Virus record (IMG/VR): IMGVR_UViG_3300037882_000418
Coordinates: 1 to 54,438 of that record
Origin: a virus
Length of the DNA stretch: 54,438 nt
Strand: one strand, 5' to 3'
The notes below the pieces were generated by a model, which made no database searches, was not told the DNA's origin, and saw nothing but the letters and a program-made list of their open reading frames with translations. This document shows, piece by piece, positions 3,001 to 50,031 of this stretch; position 1 is the first letter of the stretch; each line of letters begins with the position of its first letter. The translations under genes were made by a program, and so were the position numbers.

Positions 3001-6000
3001 AGGTTGTGCTACTGATTTAAGAGGCTCTGAAGTAGGATTAAACTGAAATCCAAAATTATTATTATCTAATTTTAGTATATGAGATTTAGGCACTAAGGTA
3101 TCCTTAGGAAAATTCCAATCTATAGCTTCTCCTAAATTCATAGTGTTAGCTGGAGTACCTAATTTAATTGCTGAAGAGAATACTAATTCTCCAACAGAAT
3201 TGGCTTCCATAGCATCACGTATAGCTACTAATTCTGGATATTTACCTGCTGGATTTAAAGTGGTAATACCTAATAAAGAATCAGTTAATACTATAGAAGA
3301 ATATTTTAAATAAACTGGTTTAGCAATAGGTAAATATAATTGGAATTCTTCTTTATCATTTTTAGATAAAGGATTAAATGTAAAACTACCATTAACATCT
3401 GCTCTTAGATAAGACATATCTGCAAGAGCTTTTCTTGCTTCTGCTTCTGTCTGATAAGATGAGTGTGGTTCAAAAACTGTGTGAATACCAAAGTGCATAG
3501 GCTTCATCACGTTACCTAAATGGAATTCAAAACTGAATCCTCTAGATAAATCATTCCATCTATTAGGATGCATAAATCCTGCACCATCAGTTACTTTGTA
3601 ACCACTTGTTTCAAATAAATCTATTATTTTATCTATTCTTTCTTTTATCTGGTCTGCACTTAAATTCATATTAGAGTAAAATCCCTCTAGGAAAGTCCTA
3701 ATAGAAGGTTGACTAGCAGATTCAGAATTTAATGAAACTTCAGTATCATTAACAATCCATGCATTATAAGTTTCAGAAGAACCATTTTTACCAACTCTAG
3801 GTTTTATCTGCGGACCATTAGCACCAGATTGTCTTTTAACAATGTCTACAACTCCTTTTTTATAGTATTCAGGATTACCTGATAATAGCTCATTTAAGAA
3901 GTAACCATTAATCATATTATTAGCATACCATACACTAAATAATTGTTGAGTATCTTCTACACCAAAGCTTTTAACTAATGCGTCTGTATTTTCAGGAAAC
4001 TTGATACCAAGTTTCTCTAATGTAGGAAATACAGTTTTAGAATGAGCAATTATAGCATCATATACTTCTTCAGCGGCCTTTTGCCTTAATACAATATCTG
4101 AACCATCTGTGTTTAAATATGATTGAACTAAATTAGATTGTTTATAGAAATCAGCATTTAAAAACCTCAACTTAACCCCTTCTATATTTTTCATATAGTG
4201 GAATTTATCAATCATAGTTTGTATAGCCTCTAAAGAAGTAGTCTTATTAAGAACATTAACTTTTACAGTGCCTATTCTTGCACCATCAGAAGGTTGGTAA
4301 GTAAATTGATAGTAAGTAGCTTTTTCTGGATCAGATTCTAAGTTAGATAAAAATCCATATAAGAAGTTTCTAGACCACCAAAACTTAGATGTCTCTCTAT
4401 TAAAATTCCATGACTTATTAGTAAATAAGTTCTTAATAGAGTCATGTATTTCTATTTTAGATTTTATTTTATTTATACCGTTTACAAATATATTATTTTG
4501 ATAAACTGGTGTATATATAAAATCAGGCATTAAGTGAGACTTAATAGAAGACAAATCTGTACCTCCTCCACCAAGAAACTTAGTAGAGTTATTTTGAGGA
4601 TGGAATGCTTTTCTAGTATAATATAAATTCTTAATTAGTCGTATTGCAAAAGAAGATACTGTATGTTTAAATATTCTATTATTTTCAGAATCTATAACTG
4701 ATGTTGGGCGTTGTTGTTTATTATCCTTAGATAATATATTAGATATTTTCTTAAACCTAGTTGTATGCCCTTCTATAGCCCACTCTAAAATAATAGCTTC
4801 TTTCTCTTCAAAACTTAATTCTTTCTTTAGTTTAGGGGTTAATTCCCCAATATGGTTTTTTATCTGACTTAAAGTTCCTACAAATTCTAATATTTCAGTA
4901 TCTTTTAATCTTAATATAGATGCTATATGTGGTAATCCTAAAGTATCCTTAATAAAGTTTCTAACAGAAATCAAGTCAGAATTAGGTATAACAGAACTAG
5001 GTGTAAGTTTACCTTTGATTATAGCGTCTGCAAAGCCTCTTTGTAACTGGTTTCTAATATCTTGAGAAGTAGTAGTTTCAGACGGGTTTATGTACTTTAC
5101 TATATATTTATAACCTTTTCTTCCATCTTCAGTATAAGATTTGTACTCTACAGTAGCTTGTAAATAATCTCTTTCATCTAAGGAACCTAAGTGATTATGT
5201 AGTGCGTTTAAAACATTTATAGCTATAGTGTGTTGGTATATATCATTGAAATCTTCTATAGTAAACTCAGGTCTTTGTTCTTTAATAAAATTAAATAATT
5301 GTTGCATAGTATCTGTACTATCTTTAGCCTCAACTACTTTTCTAGACCAGTTAGCATTTTTAGTAGAGTAAAGTACAGCAGTTGGTCTACCACTTAAATC
5401 TCCTGTATCAAAAGTAGATACATATGCACCATAGTAAATTTTATTAGATGTAGGATCTTGATATACCCTTATAGCTACGTCATTAAATTTAGTTCTAGTA
5501 CGTAATGCAGATTCCATTACTTTGCGTAAGTTAGTTAATAGAGCCTCACCCCATAAGTTTAAGTTTTCTTTTTGGTGTATAGTGTCTATAATGTCGTGCA
5601 TAGACTCTAATGACAGGTTAGATAAATCTATGTACTTAGCAAACCAATCAAGCATAGTCCTAAAAGCACAAGAAGAATTGACGTATCCTCTTAAGTCATA
5701 AGGATCACTAGAATCAGTAACTTTAATAAATGCTAAGAAGTCTTTAACAGAAGTAGAAATTTTCATTTCTTGATCTTCCATCTCATCTACAACTGTTTCA
5801 TTTCTTAAGGAATCAGAATCTTGAACTATTTGTAACTTCTCTTCCATAGTGATAAACTCACTATCATACGCTTTACCTATTTTATTGACGTAATCCATAT
5901 CTAAAGACCAGTTAGGGTAAATAGATTTAATTAACTTAATAATTATAGGACTAGTACCTTCTCTTCTATGAGAAATTAAAGAAGTCAAACCATTTACAAT

Positions 6001-40557: not shown

Positions 40558-42981
40558 TTATTTTGGGGTTTTACTCACCTTTGATGCTTTAATCCGAGCT
40601 AATTTTTCTGCAGATTCTCGATCTTTTTTATTTTCTTCAGTTTCATGTTGCATCTGTTCTTTTTTGATAGTAATATCTGCTTTTAATTTTTCTAGTTCCA
40701 TGATGTCTGGAACTTCATTATCGTTTATATCTGTATCCTCTGCCCAAGATAAAGCTTTAATCATTTCTCTTTCTTTAGCAGCAGCATCTTTTTGAGCTTG
40801 TAATTCTTTTGCATGTTGAAACTCTTGAGCTTTCATTTGCTGGGCCATCATAGAAGCTTGTTTTTGAGATTCTTGTTGTGCTCTAATTTGTTCTAATTGC
40901 TCTTGTTGTGCTTTGGATTCGGATTTTAAAATATCTATTTCTAATTCCCTAGCTGAAGTGCCTTTTAGTATCTTGATAATATCTGTAAGTTTAGCTTTAT
41001 CATTCTGCAATAAAGGTTGAGCCAAGTTTTGTAGTTGTTCAAATAATCTAGTATCTTTTGTAGCATTAGATATGAATAATCCTAAGTCACAATTAACTAA
41101 TGAATCAGATGGTATCTCTAAAGTTTGTAAAGACAAATCATCTAGTACATATTGTTTAGTTATAGATTTATTTTGATACGCTACCTGCGCACACTGAATT
41201 AAAGAGTTTAATACATTCTCCCATAACAAATCATGGGGTTTCATATAGACAGCCTCTATAATATTAGAAGACATGGCTATGTCAGACTGTGCATTAGTTA
41301 CTGCTTGATTAGTAGGTGTTTGACCCTCAGCTCCTCTAGGAATACCAGCTACATCATTAATCTGTTCATCTAGTAAAGCTAACGATTGAAAATAAGCTAA
41401 TATCTGTTGAATATTAGATCTATCTACAGCTCCACTTACTTTACCACCTCGTTGATGAGCACCCGGTCTTTCTGCATTTTGTAAAGGATTATAAAAGTCA
41501 TAATCCATTTCTTCTAAATAGTATAAAGTCTTTTCAATTCCCATTATAGGGTCAATCATTGTAGTATCTAAAGGAAAGGTTTTTCCTTTATCTCTAGCAA
41601 TTAATCTTTTTAACTTATGACACACCATACTATAGATGTGTTGAAACGGTTTCATACGTTGCACTATAGATATAGCTGGAGCATTAGTATTAGAATATAC
41701 TAACCCGTGATAACCTAATTTTACTTTATATGGGTTATCTACTGACCTATATTGATACTTTTTAGGACCAATACAGCAATAAATATTCTCTCCTATTTTA
41801 ACACCTTCCCATACTTCAGGGATATACCCCCACTCTAACGAATAATTATCCCAAACATACTCTGTAATAGTCTCCCCATAATGACCTTTAGAAGTAATAA
41901 TCTCTGCATAAGGAGGTATTACCAAATCTTCAGACACCATCATAGTTTCCTCTCCATTTTCTTTTAAGAAACCTATTCTTTTTTGACTTACCCACTCTAC
42001 ATGAGTAACTTCTATATCATCCATTCTAAATGGGGAATAGGAACCAGCAGGAGCATTTAATCCGTATTCTTGTTCTAGTTCTGCTTTAAAGAATAAATCG
42101 GTAGGGTGGTCATCTCTAGTATTAGAACCAGAATACATTTGCTCTAATCTTTCTACATCAGACTTCGACAAGAATTTAGCAAACTTATCTAATACATCCC
42201 CTATAGTTAATTTAGTTTTATACCCAGCATACATACCGTCTTCTACATATTTAACATCTGCAGATTTATGATAAAATACACCTAAAGGATTTAATATAAC
42301 TGTAACAGGTTCATTATTTTCTATACCTACCCAGACATGCTCTTCTCCAGAGATTAGCCCGTGTTTAAATGAATCATTCTTCTTATCTATTAATCTTTCT
42401 TTCTTTAAAAGAAATTGCATTAATTGGTTAGCCAATCTCTCTTTAGCGTCCATGTAAGTATAGGTCATATACTCCTCTATAGCCTCTAAAGACTTAGAAG
42501 GCTGTTGTTGCTCTTGCCCCTGTTGTTGAGGTGGCTCTACTTGTGCATAATTTTGAGTTACATAATTCTCTACGAATTCAGAAAGTAATTTCTTTTTAAA
42601 TTCTAATTTAGATTTAATTCCATCAGAGTTTACTAAAACTACTTTATAGTTAAATGCTCTTTTATATTCTTGCCCAAGTAACCAGTTTATTTTATTAGGT
42701 ATTTTATTGTAAGCTTTTATTTCGTCTTTATATTGACCTACCTCTATACCTAAAGCATTACAGTCAGCTTCAAATTCTGTCTGATCTATAACATTATTAT
42801 ACAGTAAATAAGAATTCAACATTTGAGAATGCCTAGAATCTTTTACTTTAGATTCAGTATTAAACAATGTATATGAATCCCTAATTACATAGTCTATAGT
42901 TCTTTTTGCCCACTTAAAGTCGTCTTTGATTTTTTCTTTAAACGAAAGCCGCTGCTGTGGAAACACCAAATTTGTGTCCAT
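40558..42981 (-). CDS. Portal protein
   Basis: An 807-aa protein directly after TerL, the usual portal position, and of the size typical in crAss-like phages. The N-terminus has KIPNKINWLLGQEYKRAFNY; the middle has long mixed regions (EVTHVEWVSQKRIGFL, VWEGVKIGENIYCCIGPKKY). The last third is a long, Gln/Glu/Lys-rich coiled coil (about residues 690-800) as in portal barrels. No UGA codons; Trp is TGG. It forms the head vertex ring through which DNA passes. The call rests on position, size and architecture. Confidence 0.88.
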   Translation of the reverse strand: MDTNLVFPQQRLSFKEKIKDDFKWAKRTIDYVIRDSYTLFNTESKVKDSRHSQMLNSYLLYNNVIDQTEFEADCNALGIEVGQYKDEIKAYNKIPNKINWLLGQEYKRAFNYKVVLVNSDGIKSKLEFKKKLLSEFVENYVTQNYAQVEPPQQQGQEQQQPSKSLEAIEEYMTYTYMDAKERLANQLMQFLLKKERLIDKKNDSFKHGLISGEEHVWVGIENNEPVTVILNPLGVFYHKSADVKYVEDGMYAGYKTKLTIGDVLDKFAKFLSKSDVERLEQMYSGSNTRDDHPTDLFFKAELEQEYGLNAPAGSYSPFRMDDIEVTHVEWVSQKRIGFLKENGEETMMVSEDLVIPPYAEIITSKGHYGETITEYVWDNYSLEWGYIPEVWEGVKIGENIYCCIGPKKYQYRSVDNPYKVKLGYHGLVYSNTNAPAISIVQRMKPFQHIYSMVCHKLKRLIARDKGKTFPLDTTMIDPIMGIEKTLYYLEEMDYDFYNPLQNAERPGAHQRGGKVSGAVDRSNIQQILAYFQSLALLDEQINDVAGIPRGAEGQTPTNQAVTNAQSDIAMSSNIIEAVYMKPHDLLWENVLNSLIQCAQVAYQNKSITKQYVLDDLSLQTLEIPSDSLVNCDLGLFISNATKDTRLFEQLQNLAQPLLQNDKAKLTDIIKILKGTSARELEIDILKSESKAQQEQLEQIRAQQESQKQASMMAQQMKAQEFQHAKELQAQKDAAAKEREMIKALSWAEDTDINDNEVPDIMELEKLKADITIKKEQMQHETEENKKDRESAEKLARIKASKVSKTPK

Positions 42982-45900
42982 TATTATTAAATATTTTTTT
43001 ATTATTAGCTAAAAAAGATTCTATCTCTTTTTCAATTTTATCTGGTTCAGTAATTATCGAGACATATTGGTTGTGAGTTTCATTTAGACCTATAATACAC
43101 CCCATAAGACTCATTATAGCGTCAAAGTTACCGTCTAAGTTAAATGCTATAAGTTGTTTTATTGTGTATTTACACCTTAATTTATGAAGATTTCTTATTA
43201 CCCTATCCCCATCTAATCCTCTTTCTTCTAGTAACCAATCTCTTAAATAGTTTATACCTTCTAATTTCATACCTCTAGAAGACATGGGGTAACCATAAAC
43301 TAAACTTGGATTACTAGAAAAACTTGCTTTTTTAGTTAGAACAGTTTGAGGAGCATGAGCAAGTAAATCTAATCTTTTAATCTTTTCAAAATACTCTTTT
43401 GTATTTCCCCTTACATTTTCAAAGTATATTTTAGCACTACCATAAAATAAAGACAATTTAAATAGAGTTTCGTTTACTACATGTCGTCCTTGCCACGGTC
43501 TTGCAAAGTAAGTAGCTACAATCTCATCGTGTCCTATTTTAGTACCATATTTTTTAGTTTTTATGACGTGTATAGCACTTAACGAATCTCCAGAGGGATC
43601 ATCAATAGCTTGAGGGTCATGTCCTATTAAGTAAGCTCCTTCAGGAATACAGCCATCTACAAATTGAGGAAACTCATAAATAACGACTGCACCTTCTTTA
43701 GAAGACCCCTTCCAAGGAAAATCATTAATAGGCATTAATACCTTATCAACATCTATTTTATAATTAACTCCATTATATTCAGGAGATTTAGGGTCAAAAT
43801 ATAACTGTACAGGAATTTCTAAAGTATCCCAAGCTTTTTTATTTTCTAATTCTGCTAATACTTCTCTAAGTTCTATGATAGGCATTATTGCCCCATCTTT
43901 AGATAAAAATATTTCAGAAGGTTTTAGTGGTCTATAAACTATTTCCGCTTCTAATAGAGCTGAAGAACCTTTTGAATTCCTTAACTTAGCTCTATCTTGT
44001 TCAAGTTGTTTTATAGCAGGTTCTTTAATAGTATTACCATTCTCATCTTTAAACTTATTAAGACCTTTGTAAGCTGGGATAAAATAACCTATTCTGCCTC
44101 TAAATTCCCACTCATCATCAAATGATAGACAATCATAAGTTTCAGGCTCATAGAATATTTTCTGTACATCCACTGTACCTGAGTCCATGTCCCCACCAGT
44201 ATTATGTGTTATAAATCCATTTGCTAAATAAGTATGAGAATTATCTGTAGTTATATTATATACGTCTTGTTCTCCAATATCTGTAATTTTAGTTATGGAT
44301 ACTGATTTAGTATTATAGATATTAGAACATTCATAGTTTCCTATTTCACTAGGTACATAAGTAAGAGTTTTTCTATTCCAAAGTTTTTTAGGAGTAAATA
44401 ATTCTACTTTATCCAAAGCATCTTGCTTATGATTACATTTTAAAGCGAATGATTTTTTAAACTGAAATACATCCTCATATTTTGATATGTACAGTCTATA
44501 TATAGGTTCATTGGATTTATACCCATTTTTTCTAAATTCCTTCCTAATCGCACAATGTATCCCATATTTTAATAATAGGTACTTCATTTGATTAAGTAAA
44601 AATAAAGAAATAGAAGTTAATGTAACTTGTACATATTTATTTTTCTTTATACCTACATTTCCATCTGCATCAAAGTAACCACTAATAAATTGAGATAAAG
44701 TCTCTTTGTTAAACATATGTATGTTTCTAGGAAAACATTTATCTAATTTAGATTTACCTTCTAAATTTTCAGATTTAACTAGATTCACTATGTTCTTAAC
44801 ATAGTAAGATTTGAATCCGGTTTTTTCATTATATGTTTTTGTAGTTACTTGATAATTAGATTCAAAATAATCTTGTAATTCTTTTTCTAACACAGAGATT
44901 TCTATTCCGCCATGTTTATAAAAATATCCGTCCCCTACTGAGTAACCTAGTAAATAAGCATCTTTATTTTCTAAAGTTCCAAATATTGGAACTTCATTAG
45001 CTAATAGTAATCTATCAGTTAATTTTATATCTTTAGCTAATTTAAAAGTAGCAATAGATTTTTTTGATTCTCTAACTAAAATTGGATGATCTGTGGAACA
45101 TTCTATAAAATTATTATTGATACAATCAATTCTTACACATGGCTTTTTTTGTGGGGGATTTATATTTACTAAATCATTAGCTTCAATATGAGCACTATCA
45201 AATCCTAATATACCATCTACAAACTTAATATTTTCAATTGGAGTAATTTCTCCATATTTATTGTATACTTGAGTCCCTTTACATACGCAACCGATGAATA
45301 TAGTAGTACCAAATTTAACTTTATCTTCTGTTTGTACAGATACTAAAGCAGTATATGTCTCAATAAGATTAGGAAACATGCCTACTTCTTCTAATAAGAT
45401 TATACCTGCCCTAGAACCTTGAGCAGCAAATGGATTATCTCTAAATGTAATATTTTTGATTGTAGATTGAGAGCCTACGTATTTCCAGTTACCGCCTATT
45501 TTCTTTTTATACCTAGCAGTTATTTTAGAGCCAGATTGCCATCCACCAACATATCTCTGATAAAAAGGATGTGGGTAAGATACGCCTCCTATATCTACAG
45601 CACCCGGTAAATTCTCTATTGCTATTTTTGTCTTTACAAGTACATCATCAGAGTATTTAGCATCTGCTGCCCCTACAATTACTTCTGAAGAAGTTTTAGC
45701 TCCGGGGTCATAAGTAGTTTGCCCATTAAATAAATATTCATGTCCTACCACTCAAGAGTTCAAGTACGACTTTCCAAAATCCCTAGGCCCAAGCATACAT
45801 ATATTCTTAGATGGATTTTCATATAAAGGTCTGCCTTTATTAAACTCATGTATCTTTTCTAAATTTTCTCTAGGTGGAATATATTTCTTTAATAACCCAT

Positions 45901-46294
45901 TAGGTGCAATTACAGAGGGGTAATTTGCTACTAAGTAATCAGTAGCTTCAAATATACCAACCTCATTCATTTCCTTAACAACTATATTAGAAGTATATTC
46001 TGTATCTAATATAAACCCAGAGAACCCACGAGCTTCAGTTAAATACCGATGGTACTCTCACTCTATATCACGCAAAAGGGGCCTAGCAAAAGATTTAACT
46101 TTTGAGGCCCCTAGCGTTCTTCGTATTGTGCCAAAATTGGCATAAGAGTAGAGTTTACCCGGCATGTATTTGCCGGATACCCATTCTCCCTCAATACTTT
46201 TTCTTTTTTCTTCTCGTCAGAATGAAATATACTTATGAGATAAAGGATGATATTTAGGAATTTCTTTTAGTAAAAATTCTTCGTTACTTATCAA
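42938..46294 (-). CDS. terL: Terminase large subunit with an intein (UGA-recoded)
   Basis: This is the DNA-packaging motor. With UGA as Trp at residues 26, 79 and 181 the ORF is 1,118 codons; removing the 363-residue intein leaves 755. The N-terminal segments Y-I-S-F-W-R-E-E, GKYMPGKLYSYANF and LRDIEW are crAss-TerL-like, and two of the Trp there are UGA. The ATPase has Walker A GPRDFGKS (169-176) and Walker B IILLEE (about 298-303). The intein sits in the conserved IG|TGGDM. The nuclease part includes LIGHDPQAIDDPSGD. The start is probably TTG at 46294: an in-frame stop lies two codons upstream and the next ATG would remove the conserved N-terminus. It overlaps the upstream gene and, by 44 bases, the portal gene. 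Confidence 0.93.
44201..45289 (-). mobile_element. Intein with LAGLIDADG homing endonuclease inside TerL
   Basis: A 363-residue insertion between host residues IFIG and TGGDM. It begins with Cys (CVCKGTQVYNKYG, splice block A) and ends with FITHN followed by Thr (block G: His-Asn then a Thr nucleophile). NNFIECSTDHPILV fits block B. Two dodecapeptide motifs, LGYSVGDGYF and ISGYFDADGNVG, mark a DOD-type homing endonuclease. All splicing residues are present, so it is probably active. It contains no UGA codon. The site is within the ATPase centre, where loss by imprecise deletion would destroy packaging. Confidence 0.93.
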
Positions 46295-46733
46295 GTTTTA
46301 TTTCTAACTGTTTTAAAAGTCTTCTTAATTCTGATATATTTTTTATTACTCCTTGGAATATAACTCCTTCGTAAGAATTTTGATTATAAATTATAACACT
46401 GTTTTCTTCTGGATAAAAATCTAAAAATGTATCTTTATTTATTAAATAATGAAATAAATTTTCTTTATCTTCTACAAACCCTAAAGATATAATATCATCT
46501 GAGTCTAGGTATTTAACTCTAAAGTTTTCTTTTATATAATTACCCCACTCTTCAACTTTTTGATCATATATACAACTGTATAATCCTAGGCTAAATTCTT
46601 TTATTTTTTTTCACTCTTCTGGCATAGGATAGTGATCTGAGGAAAGCTCTTGTGCAACTGTATTTATTTTAGTTTCACATTCAAACCCAACATGAAATTC
46701 AGATATATCTGGGGTATAATATTTATTAGACAT
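46284..46733 (-). CDS. Hypothetical acidic protein, 149 aa, one UGA-Trp codon
   Basis: Starts at the ATG overlapping the groEL stop and ends in TAA inside the start of TerL. UGA at 46611-46613 must be read through; the context PEE-W-KKIKEF fits Trp. The protein is acidic with alternating strands and helices (KYYTPDISEFHVGFECETK, FYPEENSVIIYNQNSYEGV). No domain recognised. Its place directly before TerL may hint at a packaging role such as a small terminase subunit, but nothing in the sequence proves that. Confidence 0.7.
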
Positions 46734-49089: not shown

Positions 49090-49184
49090 CACGAGCTGTA
49101 GGAATCGAACCCACACTCCAGCTTTTGGAAGGCTGGGGGTATAGTTTTGAAGACTACTTGCTAGCCAATTAGCACCTAGCTCGC
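49090..49184 (-). tRNA. tRNA with anticodon UCA (UGA decoder), long variable arm
   Basis: Read on the minus strand, it has a 7-bp acceptor stem GCGAGCT/AGCTCGT followed by discriminator G; extending by one base gives an 8-bp stem. The anticodon stem GTAGT/ACTAT holds the loop CTTCAAA, so the anticodon is TCA (49148-49150 on the plus strand), preceded by the standard U33. The T arm is GTGGG-TTCGATT-CCTAC. Between anticodon and T stems lie 26 bases with a 5-bp stem CCAGC/GCTGG: a class II variable arm, typical of Ser, Leu, bacterial Tyr or Sec tRNAs and not of tRNA-Trp. The D arm has AATTGG but odd spacing; it can also form a 5-bp stem TGCTA/TAGCA. CCA is not encoded. It would translate the in-frame UGA codons of this genome. 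Confidence 0.85.
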
Positions 49185-49207: not shown

Positions 49208-49714
49208 CTATATAAGTTCTTGTTCAGATATAGATTCTACTGCTGTACCTTCTAGTTTAGAATCTTCTTCTGCTACGTCTTTTAAGCAATTCTGATATTG
49301 CTTCCACATCTTTTCTGTTAAGGACATCATTTTATCTAAATCCTCATAAGTATTTAAAGAATAAGGAATAGATGCAATTAACTCTTGTCTTTCATCTAAT
49401 TTAGCTTCCCAAGCATATAAATATTGTTCCGCTTTAGAGAGACAAAAATTCTTAAGAGTTTCTGAATGTTCCTTAAAATGATCCCAATCTAATTTAAAAT
49501 CTAAATACTCTAATTCTATAGTTTCTCTTCTTTTTAAAAGTGGAAGATTATTATATATAGACTTAGGATGAAAATCTAATATTAAAGCCCAAATTATTTT
49601 AGATATATTATCTTCTTCATATTTCTCAATAATACTCTGAATAAACTTTTCTAAAGTAACTAATTCAGGATACATTAATAAGATATCTTCAGAAGGATTT
49701 AATTTTATTTTCAT
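49208..49714 (-). CDS. Hypothetical protein, 168 aa
   Basis: ATG start overlapping the end of the zinc-ribbon gene by 10 bases; TAG stop. The protein is almost wholly helical and charged, with aromatic residues spaced along helices (WDHFKEHSETLKNFC, QYLYAWEAKLDERQ). No membrane segment and no recognised domain. It is the last protein gene before the UCA tRNA. Confidence 0.65.
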   Translation of the reverse strand: MKIKLNPSEDILLMYPELVTLEKFIQSIIEKYEEDNISKIIWALILDFHPKSIYNNLPLLKRRETIELEYLDFKLDWDHFKEHSETLKNFCLSKAEQYLYAWEAKLDERQELIASIPYSLNTYEDLDKMMSLTEKMWKQYQNCLKDVAEEDSKLEGTAVESISEQELI

Positions 49715-50031
49715 AACTCTCTAAATAAAGGAAATAAATCTGTATTAGATTTAAGCATGGAATAGAATGAGGGAGTAAGGTTACCCTTAAACTCCTCCCA
49801 TTCTGAACATTCCATGAACATTTTTCATTTGCCTAACTTATCTACTTTAGAAGAACTAAAGAATAAGTGTGGGGATTTACATTTACAATGAGGACATATA
49901 TTTAATTTCACACAAGATTTACATAACATCATTCTGTACATAACTTGCTCTCTAATATATTTAGGCATAGACTTCCTATTAAAATAAGCCCAGTAACCAT
50001 TAAATAAATTAAAAGCATCTTGTGCTACCAT
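49705..50031 (-). CDS. Zinc-ribbon protein, 108 aa, two UGA-Trp codons
   Basis: The standard-code ORF would stop at 49825. With UGA as Trp at 49825-49827 and 49711-49713 the protein runs to TAA at 49705, adding KMFMECSEWEEFKGNLTPSF and a short tail. The central segment CKSCVKLNICPHCKC has the C-x2-C-x5-C-x2-C spacing of a small zinc ribbon, preceded by a helical region. It ends inside the start of the next gene. Zinc-ribbon proteins of this size often bind nucleic acid or act as adaptors; a role here is not determined. The second UGA is the second-to-last sense codon, a very short extension beyond a possible ancestral stop. Confidence 0.7.

Follow-up and report, generated by a model that had tools for sequence, protein, structure and literature searches.

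A UCA-anticodon phage tRNA that carries a second, CCA-bearing anticodon-like arm

How can a tRNA with a long variable arm deliver tryptophan (Trp) at UGA codons? This question is raised by the linear IMG/VR virus record IMGVR_UViG_3300037882_000418, which was analysed over its full length of 54,438 bases (hereafter the window) and which contains a tRNA gene with the anticodon UCA on its minus strand. The initial annotation had assigned the body of this tRNA to class II, the long-armed type of the tRNAs for serine (Ser), leucine (Leu), tyrosine (Tyr) or selenocysteine (Sec), and had proposed that a non-Trp body had been adapted to Trp, that some UGA codons are read as another residue or that a second Trp suppressor exists. 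Comparison with related sequences makes a different answer somewhat more probable than its contrary: the gene would encode a dedicated opal-suppressor tRNA-Trp with its anticodon arm in tandem duplicate, of which arm 1 decodes UGA and arm 2 gives Trp identity to the tryptophanyl-tRNA synthetase (TrpRS) of the host. The parts of the gene are as follows (bp, base pairs; nt, nucleotides).

49090..49184, minus strand: putative opal-suppressor tRNA-Trp with two anticodon-like arms, complete gene
49178..49184, minus strand: 5' strand of the acceptor stem, GCGAGCU, with a G1-U72 wobble
49159..49174, minus strand: D arm UGCUA-AUUGGC-UAGCA, with the 5-bp stem UGCUA/UAGCA and the 6-nt GG loop AUUGGC
49141..49157, minus strand: arm 1, the anticodon arm GUAGU-CUUCAAA-ACUAU, with UCA at 49148-49150
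49118..49136, minus strand: arm 2, the variable-region hairpin CCAGC-C-UUCCAAA-A-GCUGG, with CCA at 49126-49128
49098..49114, minus strand: T arm GUGGG-UUCGAUU-CCUAC
49090..49097, minus strand: 3' strand of the acceptor stem, AGCUCGU, and the discriminator G73

The initial annotation was right that this is a real tRNA gene with the anticodon UCA, a variable region of 26 nt containing the 5-bp stem CCAGC/GCUGG, and G73. The CCA tail is not encoded, as G73 is followed by CAAAA. An acceptor of 8 bp had been suggested; it turned out to have 7 bp (GCGAGCU/AGCUCGU), to be closed by the G1-U72 wobble and to form a stack of 12 bp with the 5-bp T stem. The D arm described as unusual is present, but it is best read as the 5-bp stem and 6-nt loop given above, an arrangement that is also possible in the orthologue from the syntenic relative L003. 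Likewise, the variable arm is indeed long, but it is not of the Ser, Leu or Sec type. Instead, it forms a second anticodon-like arm, and its loop UUCCAAA (U33-C34-C35-A36-A37) is the anticodon loop of tRNA-Trp(CCA). When the 3' half (arm 2, T arm and acceptor) was compared by blastn, the best matches were weak and lay in phage records, several tRNA-Trp genes among them. Thus, the gene resembles a tRNA-Trp whose anticodon arm has been doubled and whose 5' copy has turned UCA. The CCA-bearing arm, these matches and the Trp-like acceptor end (U72, G73) speak against an adapted non-Trp body. The four-arm fold has a free energy of -29.3 kcal/mol, which is 0.9 above the minimum of -30.2. Covariance models for tRNA-Sec (RF01852; 38.8 bits, cut-off 47) and for tRNA (26.4 bits, cut-off 29) both recognise the gene, but both score it below their cut-offs; no Rfam family reached its cut-off anywhere in the window, and no intron was found.

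Relatives of the gene were sought in IMG/VR with the pattern CTTCAAAACN{15,45}GGGTTCGANTCC, which leaves the sequence of the variable region free, and the 106 stretches obtained were subjected to structural fitting. Since the scan was tied to a single arm-1 sequence and covers the matches listed, the size given for the family is a minimum; moreover, conservation of the arm-1 loop is built into the pattern, whereas that of arm 2 is not. Structural fitting divided the long-arm UCA tRNAs into selC genes with an 8-bp acceptor and a class with a 7-bp acceptor and G73. The latter comprises at least 46 distinct tRNAs, 45 of which (42 fitted directly and three lengthened by one pair by the fitter) have a hairpin of about 5 bp with a UCCA loop. 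In these 45, the loop reads N-U-C-C-A-A-N, with one or two cases of N-U-C-C-A-U-N; the one exception in the class is L065. Further UCA tRNAs, in L016 and L036, lack both the arm-2 motif and the U72-G73 end. A CCA loop was found in 0/11 of the true selC tRNAs from the scan. The same contigs contain 216 distinct class II tRNAs with anticodons other than UCA, and none of these has a centred UCCA loop.

Conservation was quantified in 37 non-redundant members of this group, hereafter twin tRNAs. In arm 2, U33, C34, C35 and A36 are invariant (37/37) and A37 is kept in 36/37, while each of the stem pairs 2-5 is present in 34-36 members, with four to six pair types, a result that beats all 500 shuffles. 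RNAalifold recovered the acceptor, two central hairpins and the T arm, with compensatory changes in 16 of the 21 pairs. Furthermore, G73 occurs in 37/37 and U72-G73 in 36/37; the first pair is A-U in 28, G-U in eight (the arrangement seen in the window) and G-C in one. The distance from arm 2 to the T stem is 4 nt in 28/37 and stays within 3-5 nt throughout the set, whereas the linker between the two arms varies from 0 to 6. In the L003 orthologue the stems have diverged and both triplets, UCA and CCA, have been kept. The two-arm anatomy is thus well supported, with arm 2 under strong selection for UCCA, and dozens of phages of diverse kinds have kept both arms. When 12 twin tRNAs were run against Rfam, half stayed below every cut-off and two were labelled tRNA-Sec; such genes are therefore easily overlooked or mislabelled.

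UGA is, judging from protein alignments, a Trp codon in this phage, as the protein context had suggested. Two protein-coding genes of the window are of particular use here.

42938..46294, minus strand: large terminase, interrupted by an intein and with UGA in frame at codons 26, 79 and 181
49705..50031, minus strand: neighbour gene of the tRNA, with UGA at codon 69

Among the window genes listed under code 4 there are 22 in-frame UGA codons. At terminase codons 26 and 79, all relatives have Trp, phi14:2, a phage with the standard code, among them. Opposite codon 69 of the neighbour gene, four relatives have Trp and the distant phi14:2 has Phe. Of 35 informative UGA sites (non-shadow genes) in the phage group of the window, 23 have Trp as their majority residue, against a background of 1%. 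The corresponding values are 50 of 130 sites for the other twin loci and 12 of 20 for loci with a class I UCA tRNA, again over a background of 1%. In the short gene at 46284-46733, UGA faces a gap or Leu, so that this site is uninformative. An outlier is terminase codon 181 (45752-45754, minus strand), where every relative has Gly (GGN); a substitution, an assembly error or another reading may lie behind it.

How charging and decoding could be shared between the two arms may be pictured as follows. Arm 1, which follows the D arm and has a canonical loop (CUUCAAA), would read UGA on the ribosome. Arm 2, with its loop UUCCAAA, precedes the T stem by 4 (3-5) nt, approximately where the anticodon arm of a class I tRNA is found, and would offer the identity triplet C34-C35-A36. 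The host TrpRS would recognise the acceptor end U72-G73, presumably contact the CCA loop of arm 2 and so load the tRNA with Trp, which would then be inserted at UGA by way of arm 1; a switch between two stacked conformers may be involved. Known recognition elements for bacterial TrpRS are G73 and the anticodon triplet (PMC12135181; PMC9976931). Moreover, the rice mitochondrial tRNA-Trp is listed with G1-U72 and G73 (PMC9976931), the same end as in the window. A synthetase of the TrpRS/TyrRS (tyrosyl-tRNA synthetase) family (PF00579), as a phage-borne means of charging, was absent from the 15 twin records searched. Neither was a second UCA tRNA, the additional Trp suppressor proposed initially, found by pattern in this record, a linear piece of 54 kb, or in 16 other, likewise fragmentary records with twin tRNAs. 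Whether twin tRNAs form a widespread phage class, in which a UCA loop serves the ribosome and a CCA loop the synthetase, so that the meaning of the codon is altered while the recognition triplet of the synthetase is not, we regard as evenly balanced.

Several points weigh against a charging role of arm 2. Those who solved the E. coli TrpRS-tRNA structure argue that the enzyme has no need to tell C34 from U34 (PMC12135181); given such tolerance, the CCA copy may be dispensable for the charging of a UCA tRNA. Class I UCA tRNAs also exist in phages. In addition, it is not obvious how a variable arm could extend to the anticodon pocket of TrpRS if the fold is class II-like, and simple folding of the window tRNA gives a probability of 0.19 for arm 1 and 0.90 for arm 2. 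Finally, L065 has a UCA tRNA with A1-U72, G73, a 7-bp acceptor and a long arm, located around its only GTCTTCAAAAC, that is without a CCA loop. Further UCA tRNAs, in L016 and L036, lack both the arm-2 motif and the U72-G73 end.

The least improbable of the alternatives, although still unlikely, is that arm 2 acts as a decoy or shield luring anticodon nucleases of the host or other enzymes that bind tRNA-Trp away from the decoding loop. Phage tRNAs do counter tRNA-cutting defences, and an exact CCA loop on a covarying stem would make good bait. However, a decoy could be useful on any tRNA, whereas the arm was seen here only in UCA tRNAs (0/216 other class II tRNAs), and the co-conserved U72-G73 end points to TrpRS. 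A shade less probable is a second decoding anticodon, with UGA read via arm 1 and UGG via arm 2 in alternative stackings. This idea gains from the class I spacing between arm 2 and the T stem, from U33 and A37 and from the perfect Trp loop CUCCAAA in arm 2 of 7/37 members. The UCA anticodon can, however, already read UGG by wobble, and several twin phages own a separate class I tRNA-Trp(CCA). Moreover, the arm-2 loop has G32 in 22/37 twin tRNAs, a base that occurs in only 11 of 1286 phage tRNAs and not once in the 70 anticodon loops of phage tRNA-Trp(CCA). The frequent G32 suggests that the constraints on a decoding loop have been relaxed in arm 2 while the synthetase triplet has been kept, which argues against decoding by this arm.

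That arm 2 is a functionless relic of the tandem duplication appears very unlikely. The arms are copy-like in many members (GGUCUUCAAAACC and GGUCUCCAAAACC), and duplication is the simplest origin of the design, but a relic would drift, whereas UCCA is invariant while the stems diverge and covary. It is even harder to maintain that the gene specifies a tRNA for selenocysteine, serine or leucine, with UGA read as that residue: the SeC label given by ARAGORN and the tRNA-Sec score of 38.8 bits are countered by the 12-bp instead of 13-bp acceptor/T stack, by U72, by Trp at the UGA sites and by the true selC genes of the same scan, which differ and lack the CCA loop. Just as improbable is the removal of one arm from a precursor, yielding a Trp-UCA and a Trp-CCA tRNA from one gene, since, although deletion of either arm leaves a plausible class I tRNA on paper, Rfam sees no intron in the window and bacteria, to our knowledge, have no tRNA-splicing endonuclease. 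A loop-loop kissing interaction of CCAA with the D loop was also considered and is unsupported, because the base ahead of GG varies.

The window encodes crAss-like virion proteins (portal, large terminase and major head protein) together with a phage GroEL, and the carrier of the tRNA is a crAss-like, gut-type phage. ARAGORN calls a single tRNA gene in the window, at 49090-49184 on the minus strand, and labels it tRNA-SeC(tca). The gene is flanked by ORF-49208 (ORF, open reading frame) and the GroEL gene, and the same two neighbours are present in L003. Next to the twin tRNA of L003, at 4726-5049, ARAGORN also calls a tmRNA, which is suggested to be false because of its long tag peptide. The intein of the window terminase (44201-45289, minus strand) contains LAGLIDADG-like motifs; it starts at C336 or C338 and ends at H697-N698 before Thr, and the host protein restarts downstream at TGGDM.

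Beyond the window, crAss-like carriers of twin tRNAs include L003, L045, whose portal is about 54% identical to those of crAss-like phages, and L083, which has a terminase of the crAss-type family. Other carriers are not recognisably crAss-like, namely L014, a 142-kb record with collagen-like tail fibres, L101, with a ribonucleotide reductase akin to those of phages of Pseudaeromonas and Rhizobium, and L037. A separate class I tRNA-Trp(CCA) lies near the twin gene in L031, G014, G017 and G019. Ordinary class I UCA tRNAs with a variable loop of 4-5 nt occur in other phages, and about 11 of 29 have U72-G73 (hand count), compared with 36 of the 37 twin tRNAs. In L116 (PP511876.1, Dulem virus 42), GenBank breaks up the genes for the terminase, the portal and the capsid into numerous short coding sequences, which is consistent with an unrecognised alternative code or with inserted elements.

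A scan of 84,980 species genomes from GTDB with the twin pattern gave 112 stretches, among which L377, L397 and L454 are true twins; L377 is from Bacteroides neonati and its tRNA is the same as that of the viral L105. The other GTDB stretches examined turned out to be selC or chance sequence. For instance, L362 and L398 (Alphaproteobacteria/Caulobacteraceae) are selC genes with a normal 8-bp acceptor and UCCAAAA in the variable loop, probably by chance, having surfaced because the pattern demanded UCCA. In INPHARED, the type sequence gave a single partial match of 47 bases (a Staphylococcus phage contig) and nothing full-length. The lone IMG/VR match to a pattern for a CCA/CCA duplication intermediate, L230, is not a twin. 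Twins with CUA plus CUG or UUG, as might be expected in UAG-recoding phages, were not seen among the matches listed. A phage tRNA-Leu(UAA) in L463 (5826-5924, plus strand) has an over-long variable region whose hairpin loop, CUCAAAA, is the Leu CAA anticodon loop. This candidate hints that the design may reach beyond Trp, although chance may account for one such find among so many class II tRNAs.

Compared with known systems, the twin tRNA shares G73, U72, the UCCAA loop and the similarity of its 3' half with bacterial tRNA-Trp(CCA), which has CCA in its sole anticodon arm, whereas the twin tRNA has it in an additional arm on the 3' side of the UCA arm. The first pair, A1-U72 in bacterial tRNA-Trp, is G1-U72 in the window. 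With bacterial tRNA-Sec (selC, RF01852) it has in common UCA, the long variable arm, a long D stem and G73; tRNA-Sec, however, has an 8+5-bp stack (13 bp) instead of the 7+5 of the twin family, C72 and a variable arm without a CCA anticodon loop. Allo-tRNAs and selC* are likewise non-canonical long-arm tRNAs with stop anticodons, but they have 8/4 or 9/3 acceptor branches and Ser, Sec or Cys identity, and we know of no duplicated anticodon arm among them. The suppressor tRNA-Trp of phages using translation table 4 shares UCA, the reading of UGA as Trp and its location on a phage genome, but these suppressors are described as ordinary tRNAs and a second anticodon loop is not mentioned (PMC7886860; PMC11210395). 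In the open-licence literature of PubMed Central, which leaves out preprints and many journals, phage opal suppressors were found, but no two-armed or class II Trp-UCA tRNA, although several of the searches were directed at just such a tRNA; provisionally, the two-armed design thus appears to be undescribed.

Missing suppressors in recoded phages have been noted twice. A detectable suppressor tRNA with the anticodon TCA was reported in only 11 of 73 table-4 phages, many of which infect Mycoplasma or Spiroplasma and have the same code as their host (PMC11210395), and divergent suppressors that evade detection have been proposed for recoded phages (PMC7886860). The twin design may help to explain the seeming lack of a suppressor in many UGA-recoded phages. 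If charging and decoding are indeed divided between the two arms, the twin tRNA would be a natural tRNA in which the triplets for the two functions are physically apart, an arrangement that we have not found described, and it would offer a ready design principle for suppressor tRNAs.
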